Shown piece by piece: positions 4,054 through 53,005 of a DNA stretch of 64,000 bases. The translations under genes were made by a program, and so were the position numbers. This DNA is from Nibricoccus aquaticus (GTDB lineage: Bacteria > Verrucomicrobiota > Verrucomicrobiia > Opitutales > Opitutaceae): contig NZ_CP023344.1 of NCBI RefSeq assembly GCF_002310495.1, positions 4,481,501-4,545,500 of the forward strand, read 5' to 3'. The notes under the pieces were generated by a model. That model had not been told where the DNA came from and ran no database searches. It worked only from the letters and a program-made list of their open reading frames with translations. How positions within the stretch are numbered: position 1 is the stretch's first letter; each line of letters opens with the position of its first letter.

Positions 4054-4081
4054 GTAGCCGCGAGCGCGCAGCGAGCGGTCC
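4054..4081 (+). repeat. REP-like hairpin, copy 1
   Basis: The copy starts with GTAG, then arms CCGC and GCGG with inner GAGC/GCGAG and loop GCGCA, then TCC. It is a G-C stem copy with the long loop. It lies just beyond the 3' end of pdxH. Other copies are at 12401, 19943, 46764 and 52978. Confidence 0.8.
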
Positions 4082-4680: not shown

Positions 4681-5115
4681 TCAGCCTTCGTACTCCGCCC
4701 AGCTAGTAGCCGTCTCGTGCATCCGGATTCTTCGTACGCGCACACGCCGCGCCACCGCCTCGGGCGACGTCTCCAATTCCGCCTTCATCTTCTCGAAAAC
4801 CCGCCGCGCCATCAGCTCGCTCGTCGGATCCTGATTCTCGAACGCCACCACCCGCTCGTACGCCGCCCGGTACAGCGGATAATGCGCGTCCGCCGTGTTC
4901 AGGCACATCGCGTGGTCGAACGTCTCGATGAACCCGCCGATCAACGCGCTCACCTGCTTGAAGTCGCACACCATGTCGTTCGCATCGAGTTCGTCCGCCT
5001 CGACCACCACCTCGATCCGCCGGCTGTGCCCATGCGGAAACCGGCACTTCCCCGGATGCTTCGACAGGATGTGTCCGTTCTCCACCGAGAAAACTTTGCA
5101 GATCCGATAAGGCAT
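4681..5115 (-). CDS. queD: 6-carboxy-tetrahydropterin synthase (QueD/PTPS family)
   Basis: This 144-aa protein has the zinc site His15, His28 and His30 (FPHGHS), the catalytic Cys24, the DHAMCLN segment, PTSE, and the C-terminal HETATSWAEY glutamate motif of the 6-pyruvoyl-tetrahydropterin synthase family. QueD converts dihydroneopterin triphosphate to 6-carboxytetrahydropterin in queuosine/deazapurine synthesis. No other que genes are in view. It precedes pdxH by 4 bp in a probable two-gene unit that may extend back to the dihydroorotate-dehydrogenase-like gene. Confidence 0.92.
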   Translation of the reverse strand: MPYRICKVFSVENGHILSKHPGKCRFPHGHSRRIEVVVEADELDANDMVCDFKQVSALIGGFIETFDHAMCLNTADAHYPLYRAAYERVVAFENQDPTSELMARRVFEKMKAELETSPEAVARRVRVRRIRMHETATSWAEYEG

Positions 5116-12400: not shown

Positions 12401-12427
12401 GTAGCCGCGAGCGCCAGCGAGCGGTCC
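12401..12427 (+). repeat. REP-like hairpin, copy 2
   Basis: A 27-nt copy with the GTAG head, CCGC/GCGG outer arms, GAGC/GCGAG inner arms, loop GCCA and TCC tail. It lies in the nrdJ-to-AraC gap. Just upstream (about 12370-12395) a GTTG...CAAC-bounded GC-rich stretch may be a second repeat type, but I see only one copy. Confidence 0.8.
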
Positions 12428-19211: not shown

Positions 19212-19916
19212 ATGGAATTCGCCGGCATCCAGTCCCCCGCCGCCGCCTTTCTCGCAGGCCTCACCACGAGCCTGCACTGCGTCGGCATGTGCGGACCGCT
19301 CGCCTGCGCCCTCACGCCCGCCGGCAAGGACCGCTCCGACCCGCAGACGGTCAACACCGTCTACCACATCTCCCGTATCCTGGGCTACACGACACTCGGC
19401 CTCCTCGTCGGCGCTCTCGGCCAGGGCCCGCTCAACGCCTTCAACGGCGCCCCGCTGCGCTTCGGCCCCTGGCTCTTCGCCGCGTTCTTCATCCTCGTCG
19501 CCTTCCGCCTCGATAAACGCCTCCCGCGCTTCGCCTGGCTCACGCGCCTCCAATTCCGTCTCCAACAAAAACTCCGTGGACGCTCCCGCCTCGCCGCCGC
19601 CGCCGGCATCGGCCTCGCCACCCCGCTCCTGCCCTGCGCACCGCTCTACTTCATTCTCACGATCGCCGCCTTCTCCGGCTCCGCCGCGCGCGGCGCAGAG
19701 TTCATGCTCTCGTTCGCCCTCGGCACGCTCCCGCTCCTCTGGCTCGCGCAAACCCACTACGCCTGGCTCCGCACCAAACTCTCGCCACGCACCCTCGCCC
19801 GCGCCCAGACCGCTCTCGCTCTCCTCGCCGCCGCCATCGTCCTCTGGCGCCTGCGCGGCACGTTCGGCGCATCGGCTCCGACTCTCGACAACCTCCTCTG
19901 CCATTTCTCGTCATGA
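19212..19916 (+). CDS. SafE/TauE-type membrane protein, probable cbb3 copper/heme assembly factor
   Basis: The 234-aa protein has about six membrane helices in two three-helix halves. The N-terminal HCVGMCGPLACAL motif and the second-half TPLLPCAPLYFILTIAAF are typical of the DsbD-like/SafE subgroup often encoded beside ccoI. Paired cysteines in the first and second halves could bind copper or cycle as thiols. The start is ATG 19212, and the stop overlaps the ccoI ATG by 4 nt, so the genes are coupled. The substrate is not known; copper handling is inferred from context. Confidence 0.85.
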   Translation: MEFAGIQSPAAAFLAGLTTSLHCVGMCGPLACALTPAGKDRSDPQTVNTVYHISRILGYTTLGLLVGALGQGPLNAFNGAPLRFGPWLFAAFFILVAFRLDKRLPRFAWLTRLQFRLQQKLRGRSRLAAAAGIGLATPLLPCAPLYFILTIAAFSGSAARGAEFMLSFALGTLPLLWLAQTHYAWLRTKLSPRTLARAQTALALLAAAIVLWRLRGTFGASAPTLDNLLCHFSS

Positions 19917-22312
19917 GCGCGCTCCCGTCCTTGTCCGTCCCCGTAGCCGCGAGCGCCAGCGAGCGGTCCGCCCGCGTCTGCCGCCACTGCGGCTCTCCCT
20001 CTTTCGACCGCGATTTCTGCTGCTCCGGCTGCGCCTTCGTCCACCGCCTCATACACGACGAGGGATTCGAGACGTATTACGATCTTCGCGACAAGATCAC
20101 CAACCCCGCCGAGTTCGCCGCCACCGCCCCGCGCGACCACGGCTGGCTCGCCTCGCTTCAACGCGACGCCCAGGCCGCCGCCGGCGAATCCTCCACCGCA
20201 TCGCTCTCCGTTTCCATCCAGGGAATCTCCTGCGTCGGCTGCGTCTGGCTCATCGAAAAAATCTTCGCCCGCCAGCCCGGCGCCGGCCGCATCGAGGTCA
20301 ACGCCCAGACCGGTCAGGCCCGCCTCTCCTGGCTCAAAACCCAATTCGACGCCGCGGCCTTCGCCTCCGAGCTCCAGCGTTTCAACTACCTCGTCGGCCC
20401 CGCAAACACCGCCATCAGCGGCCGCCGTTCCGAGAGCCAGCAACTCGCCCGCCGCCTCGGCCTCTGCACCGCCTTCGCGATGAACGTAATGCTCTTCACG
20501 CTCCCCGCCTACTTCGGCCTCGAGGCGGCCAGCCGCTACACGCACCTCTTCTCCACGCTCGCGATGGGCTTCGCCACGCTGAGCCTCCTCGCCGGCGGCG
20601 GCTACTTCCTCAATCGCGCCGGCGCCGCCCTCCGGGAGCGCACGCTCCACATCGACCTCCCCATCGCCCTCGGCATCGTCGGCGCCTTCATCGGCTCTTT
20701 CTACGGCTGGATCGCGCAGATCGAGGAGTATCAGTATTTCGACTTCGTCAGCGGTTTCATCGTCCTCATGCTTCTCGGTCGCTGGGCCCAGGTCGCTGCC
20801 GTCGAACGCAACCAGCGCCGCCTCCTTAGCGAACAACCCGCCCCGCCCCGCGTCCCGCTCTACGCGCCCGACGGCTCCCGCACCGAGGTCGCTCCGGAGG
20901 AGATCCGTCCCGGCCAGCACATCGGCGTCGCCTCCGGACAAACCATCCCGGTCGATGGCGTCCTCGCCTCCCTCGAAGCCACCCTCGGCCTCGCCTGGAT
21001 CAACGGCGAATCCGAACCGCGCCTTTTCCGCGCCAGCCAGCACGTCTCCGCCGGCGCGCAAAATCTCTCCCGCTCCGAGATCCGCGTCATCGCCACCCAG
21101 CCCTGGGAAAACTCGCTCTTCGCCCAACTCCTCAAACCCGTCACCCGCGCCGCCTTCCGCCACCGCACCATCGAGCGCGTCATCCAGGGCTATCTCATCG
21201 CGATCATCGGCGCCGCCATCGTCTCCGGTCTCTGCTGGTGGTTGTCCACCGGCGATCCCGTCCACGCCGGCGCCGTCGTCACCGCCGTCCTCGTCGTCTC
21301 CTGCCCCTGCGCACTCGGCCTCGCCTTCCCGCTCACCGACGAAATCGCCACCGTCCGCCTCCGACGCCGCGGCGTCTTCGTCCGCAGCCCCGACCTCTGG
21401 CCGCGCCTCGCTAAAATCGACCGCGTCGTCTTCGACAAAACCGGCACGCTCACCCTCGAAACCCCCGAGCTCCAAAACCCCGATACGCTCCGCTCCCTCT
21501 CGACCGACGCCCGCGCCGCCTTGCTCACGATGGTCGCCGACAGCGCCCACCCCGTCGCCCGCTGCCTCCACGCCGAACTCCTCGCCCTCGATTCCCTCGA
21601 TCCCGCCCCCGGTTCTCCCCGCGAAGTCACCGGCTACGGCATCGAACTCGGCCCCTGGCGCCTCGGCCGCGCCGACTGGGCCGCCTTCAGCCGCATCCCC
21701 TCTCACGGTGCCAAAAACGAAACCGCCCTCAGCCACCTCGGCCGCATCGTCGCCACTTTCTCCTGCACCGACACCGTCCGCACCGATGCCCGCCGCGAGA
21801 TCGCCGCCCTCTCCGCGCGCGGCCTCTCCACGACCATCCTCAGCGGCGACACCACCGCTAAGGTCCGCCAACTCGCTCTCGAACTCGCCCTCCCGGCCCA
21901 CCGCGCCATCGGCGAAAACTCCCCCCGCGAAAAAGCCGCCTGGCTCGACGCCCACTCCCCCGACCGCACGCTCATGCTCGGCGACGGCGCCAACGACTCC
22001 CTCGCCTTCGACCGCGCCCTCGTCCGCGGCACGCCCGTCATCCACCGCGGTCTCCTCGAGCAAAAAGCCGATTTCTATTTCCTCGGCCGCGGCATCGGCG
22101 GCATCCGCGCCCTCTTCGAAGTCAACGACGCCCGCGCCCGCACCCACCGCGCGCTCCTCACCTTCATGATCGCGTACAACGCCGTCGCCGTCGGCCTCTC
22201 CGTCACCGGCCACATGCACCCGCTCCTCGCCGCCGTGCTCATGCCCCTCAGCTCCCTCGCCACTCTCGCTATTGTCGCCACCGGCCTCCGCCCGCTGCGC
22301 TCCGTCGCCTGA
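19913..22312 (+). CDS. ccoI: Copper-translocating P-type ATPase for cbb3 oxidase assembly
   Basis: CcoI/FixI pumps copper for the cbb3 active site. The 799-aa protein has a Cys-rich N-terminal metal site (Cys23, Cys26, Cys36/37, Cys40), an HMA-like CVGC site near residue 107, the transport motif SCPCALGL near residue 463, the phosphorylation site DKTGT near 507 and GDGANDS near the C-terminus. The start codon overlaps the preceding gene (ATGA). Codons 11-19 (VAASASERS) are exactly the 27-nt REP-like element at 19943, inserted in frame without disrupting the metal site. Confidence 0.95.
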   Translation: MSALPSLSVPVAASASERSARVCRHCGSPSFDRDFCCSGCAFVHRLIHDEGFETYYDLRDKITNPAEFAATAPRDHGWLASLQRDAQAAAGESSTASLSVSIQGISCVGCVWLIEKIFARQPGAGRIEVNAQTGQARLSWLKTQFDAAAFASELQRFNYLVGPANTAISGRRSESQQLARRLGLCTAFAMNVMLFTLPAYFGLEAASRYTHLFSTLAMGFATLSLLAGGGYFLNRAGAALRERTLHIDLPIALGIVGAFIGSFYGWIAQIEEYQYFDFVSGFIVLMLLGRWAQVAAVERNQRRLLSEQPAPPRVPLYAPDGSRTEVAPEEIRPGQHIGVASGQTIPVDGVLASLEATLGLAWINGESEPRLFRASQHVSAGAQNLSRSEIRVIATQPWENSLFAQLLKPVTRAAFRHRTIERVIQGYLIAIIGAAIVSGLCWWLSTGDPVHAGAVVTAVLVVSCPCALGLAFPLTDEIATVRLRRRGVFVRSPDLWPRLAKIDRVVFDKTGTLTLETPELQNPDTLRSLSTDARAALLTMVADSAHPVARCLHAELLALDSLDPAPGSPREVTGYGIELGPWRLGRADWAAFSRIPSHGAKNETALSHLGRIVATFSCTDTVRTDARREIAALSARGLSTTILSGDTTAKVRQLALELALPAHRAIGENSPREKAAWLDAHSPDRTLMLGDGANDSLAFDRALVRGTPVIHRGLLEQKADFYFLGRGIGGIRALFEVNDARARTHRALLTFMIAYNAVAVGLSVTGHMHPLLAAVLMPLSSLATLAIVATGLRPLRSVA
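19943..19969 (+). repeat. REP-like hairpin, copy 3, inside ccoI coding sequence
   Basis: Identical to copy 2 over 27 nt. It occupies codons 11-19 of ccoI in phase (9 codons, no stop) and is the only copy of the family found inside a gene here. Confidence 0.85.
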
Positions 22313-46763: not shown

Positions 46764-46790
46764 GTAGCCACGAGCGCCAGCGAGTGGTCC
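46764..46790 (+). repeat. REP-like hairpin, copy 4 (A-T stem variant)
   Basis: Same layout as copies 2 and 3 but the third stem pair is A-T in place of G-C (CCAC with GTGG), both sides changed together. A half-copy starting GTAGCCAC precedes it at 46750. Confidence 0.8.
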
Positions 46791-52977: not shown

Positions 52978-53005
52978 GTAGCCACGAGCGCGCAGCGAGT
53001 GGTCC
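52978..53005 (+). repeat. REP-like hairpin, copy 5 (A-T stem, long loop)
   Basis: GTAG head, CCAC/GTGG outer arms, loop GCGCA and TCC tail. It combines the stem variant of copy 4 with the loop of copy 1. A GTAGCC fragment precedes it at 52963. Confidence 0.8.

Follow-up and report, generated by a model that had tools for sequence, protein, structure and literature searches.

The gene ccoI of Nibricoccus aquaticus contains, wholly within its coding sequence, one copy of a dispersed palindromic repeat of the GTAG REP type. We consider it very probable that this REP landed at an operon junction and became part of the translated ccoI leader, where it is tolerated rather than selected. Direct support comes from the identity of the repeat copies, the reading frame, the need for the element to be translated if the metal site is used, the placement of the copies in this genome, the predicted disorder of the leader and the absence of such residues from the relatives compared. 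An insertion event, its neutrality and an enzyme that moved the element are what we infer beyond this. The window analyzed here is a stretch of 64,000 nucleotides, part of the 4.73 Mb single-contig genome of N. aquaticus; coordinates refer to it unless a locus is named.

The ccoI gene and its setting

The ccoI gene (19913..22312, + strand) encodes a copper P-type ATPase of the CcoI/FixI type. The predicted protein has an N-terminal ATPase-cat_bd domain, a weak HMA match (slightly below the Pfam cut-off), an E1-E2 ATPase domain and a HAD hydrolase domain. Nearby are a ccoN-ccoO fusion, a ccoP-like gene and ccoG, which together constitute a cbb3 oxidase cluster; the name ccoI was assigned from this context and the domains. 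The gene immediately upstream (19212..19916, + strand) was identified by domain match as encoding a DsbD_2-type membrane protein, and the sequence places its stop codon in an ATGA overlap with the ccoI start (19913..19916, + strand).

The first metal-binding Cys motif of the protein, CRHC, is encoded at 19979..19990 (+ strand), and its first Cys, at residue 23, is the first in the protein. This C.HC motif is present in 59 of 60 ccoI loci of relatives, the exception (L110) being truncated by a contig end. We aligned the N-termini of the window's protein and 46 of the 52 usable relatives; the rows were picked for M1 and C.HC, so that these do not vary among the 47, and C36, C37 and C40, which played no part in the choice of rows, are invariant as well. 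In several relatives, by eye, ccoI starts with ATGAGC or ATGAGT at the corresponding junction with the upstream gene. The relatives named by title are Verrucomicrobiota, mostly Opitutaceae or Opitutae; the genus of the window is not among them, and the closest ccoI is 65% identical.

The repeat as part of the CcoI reading frame

The REP copy in ccoI (GTAGCCGCGAGCGCCAGCGAGCGGTCC, 19943..19969, + strand) is identical to three other copies in the genome. Codon 11 begins at 19943 and codon 19 ends at 19969, so that the element encodes VAASASERS. The initial annotation had described a 27-nt repeat occupying exactly codons 11-19, an ATGA overlap at the ccoI start and a Cys-rich site from residue 23, all of which proved exact in coordinates, frame and residues.

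It had also taken the repeat to serve as in-frame coding sequence and had named a downstream start as the finding that would overturn this. The only in-frame starts before the CxHC motif are the ATG at 19913 and a TTG (19931..19933, + strand), both 5′ of the REP, and no ATG, GTG or TTG was found from 19943 to CxHC. Thus, the REP codons are necessarily translated, provided that the metal site (C23) is, and the coding interpretation holds.

Before the first metal-binding Cys, the leader comprises 22 residues with the REP and 13 without it. Leader lengths in relatives range from 5 to 60, with a median of 25 (n = 67); each was measured from whichever in-frame ATG is most distant within 60 codons, so the values are capped and partly overlong. 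Given this high variability, leader length in ccoI proves nothing, and both 13 and 22 are normal. In an AlphaFold2 model (190 residues, 47 aligned sequences), residues 1-20 have pLDDT values of 55-57 and no secondary structure and residues 21-30 have a pLDDT of 81; the leader is predicted to be disordered. VAASASERS is absent from the ccoI leaders of relatives: the best local alignment score is 18, versus 38 for the self match (57 leaders). The initial annotation had proposed this comparison, and by eye the residues occur in none of 67 leaders, nor was a non-repeat form seen. From these sequences, the REP was probably inserted into ccoI.

A family of short palindromes

Allowing up to 3 mismatches, the 27-mer has 14 matches in the genome, of which four, including the window's, are exact, and the reversed control has none. 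A third-order Markov model built from 1.2 Mb of the same genome predicts 1.4e-8 copies. We count 29 members of this family (family A) in the genome: 22 of the 24 matches of one looser pattern and 7 from another. Two 3-mismatch matches with broken stems (L142 and L143) are excluded from the count. In the window, another exact copy is intergenic, 52 nt past a same-direction gene (12401..12427, + strand), and a copy with the compensated stem CCAC/GTGG lies 10 nt past a same-direction gene (46764..46790, + strand). Also present are two variants with a 5-nt loop, GTAGCCGCGAGCGCGCAGCGAGCGG (4054..4078, + strand) and GTAGCCACGAGCGCGCAGCGAGTGG (52978..53002, + strand).

The palindrome, CCGC-GA-GC-GCCA-GC-GA-GCGG, forms a short stem of 4+2 bp with tandem G.A mismatches. 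Its fold is weak as DNA (z -1.07) and good as isolated RNA (-12.6 kcal/mol, z -2.92). Across the 12 distinct sequences from 22 aligned copies, 98.6% of the stem cells are paired, with compensated changes between CCGC/GCGG, CCAC/GTGG and CGAC/GTCG. Double-sided changes occur at two of the six stem pairs. This count by itself is attained in 109 of 500 shuffles, and the covariation score in 1 of 500. GTAG begins 21 of the 22 aligned copies, and CTAG begins the remaining one. Family A is a true palindrome family, for which "hairpin" is the correct term.

Of 56 relatives, 9 have matches to a generic family A pattern: 54, 14, 13, 6 and 4, respectively, in five genomes and 1 in each of the remaining four. 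As the reversed control also gives single matches (in four relatives), these single matches are at control level.

The N. aquaticus genome has a very pronounced GC skew, which in many stretches amounts to 0.2 to 0.35 in one direction or the other and changes sign near 2.097 and 4.474 Mb. By eye, a dnaN-like gene lies near the former and recR- and ybaB-like genes near the latter; gene direction does not decide which switch is the replication origin. All but one of the 29 family A copies (28) are on the locally C-rich strand, including a copy in flhF that lies in a reversed-skew block near 1.59 Mb.

Placement of copies relative to genes

Genes around the REP copies were read with a two-class codon model. 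Four of the 29 family A copies are sense and in frame within genes, one is antisense within a gene resembling VIT/VWA (by eye), and 24 are outside genes. Of these 24, 21 come after a gene in the same direction, the end of which ranges from 4 nt inside the element to 105 nt before it; in four copies the GTAG of the element supplies the TAG stop. The REP in ccoI follows the upstream stop codon by 26 nt, and a copy in an ABC-2 permease gene follows by 35 nt. With these distances, both copies fit the usual placement. The difference is that the next gene overlaps the upstream stop.

In the nine relatives, the rule is weaker: of 95 family A copies, 39 come after a same-direction gene, 18 after an opposite one and 34 after neither, and 4 are in ORFs. 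The codon models for these genomes are of modest quality, and many of the copies form inverted pairs. We also identified a second family in the N. aquaticus genome (family B, GTAGGCGGGGTGCCCYCACCCCG), with 60 matches, none of them within the window. Among 11 sampled copies of family B in this genome, 6 come after a same-direction gene, 2 after an opposite one and 2 after neither, and 1 is in a gene.

Other genes that carry the repeats in frame

The three further N. aquaticus genes with family A in frame encode the ABC-2 permease, UvrA and FlhF, and all use the same frame as ccoI. In the permease the peptide is VAASASERS, and the GTG start overlaps a TGA stop, the same architecture as in ccoI. 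The uvrA copy encodes LAASTSERS in the N-terminal leader, and the flhF copy encodes VATSASESS in a linker. The permease leader has 24 aa (15 without the REP), versus 4-18 in 13 of 15 relatives (L258 and L268 were excluded because the start was unclear); the start was taken as the GTG at the TGA, and the open frame also has an ATG 28 codons before it. The UvrA leader has 33 aa (24 without the REP), versus 7-27 in 15 of 17 relatives (L293 and L294 were excluded because the match starts within the gene), with the start taken as the second GTG, 7 codons downstream of the first. Starts in both sets were assigned by eye.

The four ORF copies among the 95 in relatives are at L228, at L154 and in the two arms of one BIME (L194, with a doubtful start). 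Only L228 is a credible sense case (MSAASV-VAASASEAT, frame 0). We set L154 aside because its genome (G024) has a single match to the pattern and likewise one to the reversed control. All five credible sense copies (the four of N. aquaticus and L228) use frame 0; as frame 1 holds the TAG stop, the chance of this is 1/32 against one open rival frame. Outside this tally, the sense readings of L154 and of both L194 rows are also in frame 0. The gene at L228:1435-2979 in G025, which by eye is tentatively of diiron type, encodes VAASASEAT, VAASVSEW and two ERSGGFQPP segments in frame.

Among the few family B copies examined, one inside a gene encodes SDVGGVPSPRI (L328, about 1501-1523), and another, read as RGGGTAPPSE, is antisense inside a gene (L245). 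By eye, the host gene at L328 is BatB-like and may be a batB-batC fusion with the element at the joint; the gene that carries the antisense element at L245 is HrpA-like.

Palindromes in the ccoI leaders of relatives

Palindromes were counted in the ccoI leaders of 8 of 67 relatives. Four of these leaders (L068, L098, L062 and L026) contain, in frame, an inverted pair of family B elements that is either intact or decayed. Their genomes have 58, 58, 136 and 2 family B matches, respectively, at up to 3 mismatches; in the 16 genomes searched the reversed control gave 0 throughout, and half of these genomes (8) lack any match to the family. The family is nearly absent from the genome of L026, as one of its two matches is the leader itself. 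Three other leaders (L095, L097 and L105) have in common a long palindrome of the type GGTGGAC...GTCCACC that fills the leader, and L073 has another palindrome. A second copy of the GGTGGAC-type palindrome occurs 145 nt away in G026 (L312, L313). The leader sequence DLVDGGV...RVRGL, seen in G036 and G026, was rejected as a genome-wide repeat, as it occurs at 1 place in G036 and 2 neighboring places in G026, and is treated as a clade-specific palindrome.

Leader folds have z-scores of -7.9 (L068), -8.1 (L098), -4.4 (L026) and about -0.8 (L062). Other structured leaders, not among the counted eight, are those of L086 (z -3.6), L091 (-2.8) and L096 (-2.4); no repeat match was found for the L086 and L091 leaders. 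On a 70-row ccoI tree made by a quick method, family B in four leaders needs four changes and any counted palindrome, the window's included, needs seven; these counts exclude L084 and L102, the leaders of which were unreadable. A branch with support 99 separates L095, L097 and L105 from the other labelled rows, with L102 on their side. Excluded from the tree were L115 (short), L110 (no C.HC, contig end) and the duplicates L024 and L018.

The surroundings of ccoI in 60 loci, 457 kb in total, contain 7 matches to families A and B, every one of them within ccoI, at four sites: three leaders and one position inside the coding region of L062. Leaders of ccoI make up 60 of about 245 called genes, and by our own arithmetic three of four sites in leaders corresponds to p of about 0.05. 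The clustering is far from chance by sequence length and borderline by gene junctions. That the ccoI leader has been hit repeatedly by different palindrome families is the new part here, beyond the cases in the published text available. A second in-frame REP-like element in the ccoI of L062 (G023), at about 4761-4783, encodes DEGGVPAPRS.

Candidate mobilizing enzymes

The N. aquaticus genome encodes three Y1_Tnp (RAYT-like) genes (L053, L054 and L055). These adjoin GTAG palindromes of another type: GTAGGCCAGCGTGCTTGCACGCGC (identified by eye, at L053), GTAGGGCTGGCACGCCGTGCCCAGCC and GTAGGGACGATGCTCCGCATCGTCC. None of the three Y1_Tnp genes was found to be flanked by family A, and in the 3-kb RAYT loci the family A and B patterns match only with 3-4 substitutions.

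Origin of the ccoI element

REP dispersal, whether RAYT-type or earlier, would put elements at the 3′ ends of genes. The ccoI element very probably landed just past the stop codon of the upstream gene, in the direction of that gene, as is usual for this family in this genome, and because ccoI overlaps this stop (ATGA) the insertion would have fallen inside the ccoI leader. At overlapping junctions an element would in this way turn into the leader of the next gene. Because the element is 27 nt long and stop-free in frame, it would lengthen the leader and leave the gene unbroken. Insertions that break a frame or a fold would be lost, and a stop-free 27-nt element in a disordered, length-tolerant leader could persist.

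Other explanations are less probable. The genome is GC-rich and the ccoI leader is of low complexity, so one might suppose that Ala/Ser-rich, GC-rich coding sequence has converged on the repeat by chance. However, the ccoI copy is identical at 27 of 27 positions to three other loci, at an expectation of 1.4e-8 copies and with 0 reversed-control matches in this genome; the probability of convergence is close to nil, and chance similarity is ruled out by the copy count. It is also highly improbable that the REP is non-coding, in the sense that ccoI translation begins farther downstream and the hairpin acts as a leader RNA element, despite the caution, in the accessible text of PMC3733652, that for some Proteobacteria the majority of REPs at annotated N-termini are likely to be extragenic. 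The lack of any start between 19943 and the conserved CxHC argues against a downstream start of ccoI, a later start would drop the Cys motif seen in 59 of 60 loci of relatives (the other is cut off), and several relatives have the upstream start of ccoI too.

More weight, although still little, may be given to selection for hairpins in the ccoI leader, where REP or BIME elements would slow CcoI translation or uncouple it from the upstream genes. The palindromes in the leaders of L062, L068, L098, L026, L095, L097, L105 and L073, the four tree changes for family B (seven for any palindrome) and the confinement of all matches in the 457 kb to ccoI, three of four sites being leaders, are in favor of this explanation, which we nevertheless judge unlikely. 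The leader of the window is no more structured than shuffles (z +0.79), nor is that of L062 (-0.77). The initial annotation suggested that the hairpin near the start could affect translation, a suggestion not borne out by the predicted fold: the minimum-energy structure of the 106-nt mRNA context (z +1.23) lacks the hairpin. The gene-junction null also almost suffices (p about 0.05), and because it nearly accounts for the clustering we take landing at an operon junction as a sufficient explanation. It is correspondingly doubtful that the Opitutaceae ccoI leader is a recurrent capture site, at which unrelated REP/BIME families were recruited in frame several times because a palindrome is useful there. 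Tuning of CcoI output against the upstream operon partners is a conceivable, though improbable, use for such a palindrome.

Relation to known elements and significance

In Opitutus terrae, GTAG REPs occur inside ORFs as single copies or dimers, and the intragenic targets include both uvrA genes and RNA helicases, according to the accessible text of Di Nocera, De Gregorio & Rocco (2013; PMC3733652). The same text places GTAG REPs mostly just downstream of ORFs, where the GTAG can give a TAG stop. Family A resembles the O. terrae GTAG REPs as described there in its tag, compensated stem, location 3′ of genes and uvrA copy. It has the GTAG REP traits of an unpaired tag at one end and of 29 dispersed copies mainly 3′ of genes, but differs from the GTAG REP super-family in that no RAYT flanked by the same REP was found. 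Its stem (4 bp, tandem G.A mismatches, 2 bp) is shorter and interrupted relative to the published rules, so far as available: a GTAG REP stem of 5-13 bp (PMC3733652, Table 1) or, alternatively, a fully paired basal stem of 7-20 nt (PMC6006769). As for different REPs at about one site, the accessible part of PMC3733652 gives a single case, Xanthomonas recB, whereas ccoI is one site for two or three palindrome families over several genomes; "cytochrome" has 0 occurrences in the main text of that paper as available. The ccoI case of the window belongs to the already described intragenic GTAG REPs and is less rare than it looked. The initial view that such coding use is uncommon does not stand, given three more in-frame genes in this genome, REPs in genes of relatives and the published O. 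terrae elements. Searches of a collection of open-access literature for REPs in ccoI, or for repetitive extragenic palindromes in Opitutaceae, returned no match.

Rickettsia palindromic elements (RPE) have reportedly been described, by Ogata et al. and by Claverie and Ogata, in frame in functional protein genes. Rickettsia belong to a phylum other than that of N. aquaticus. Like RPE, family A elements lie wholly inside ORFs for conserved proteins (ccoI, ABC-2 permease, uvrA, flhF) with the frame kept. Unlike RPE, which end in CGTC (according to the accessible text of PMC3733652), they have the tag GTAG; family A works like RPE but is not one. BIME or REPIN are inverted REP pairs, as defined in the available text of PMC6006769. 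The family B pair that L068 and L098 carry in frame in their ccoI leaders is of this type, whereas the ccoI copy of the window is a single REP.

REPs inserted in frame make visible one way in which mobile palindromes contribute peptide segments to proteins. In ccoI the case for translation can be made from features of the gene (a shared start, no later start and a conserved metal site), and these features meet the common criticism that REPs at N-termini reflect misannotation. Different REP families have invaded this one leader in separate lineages; together, these cases form a natural replicate set, which bears on the question of whether such elements are neutral passengers of operon junctions or modulators of expression.
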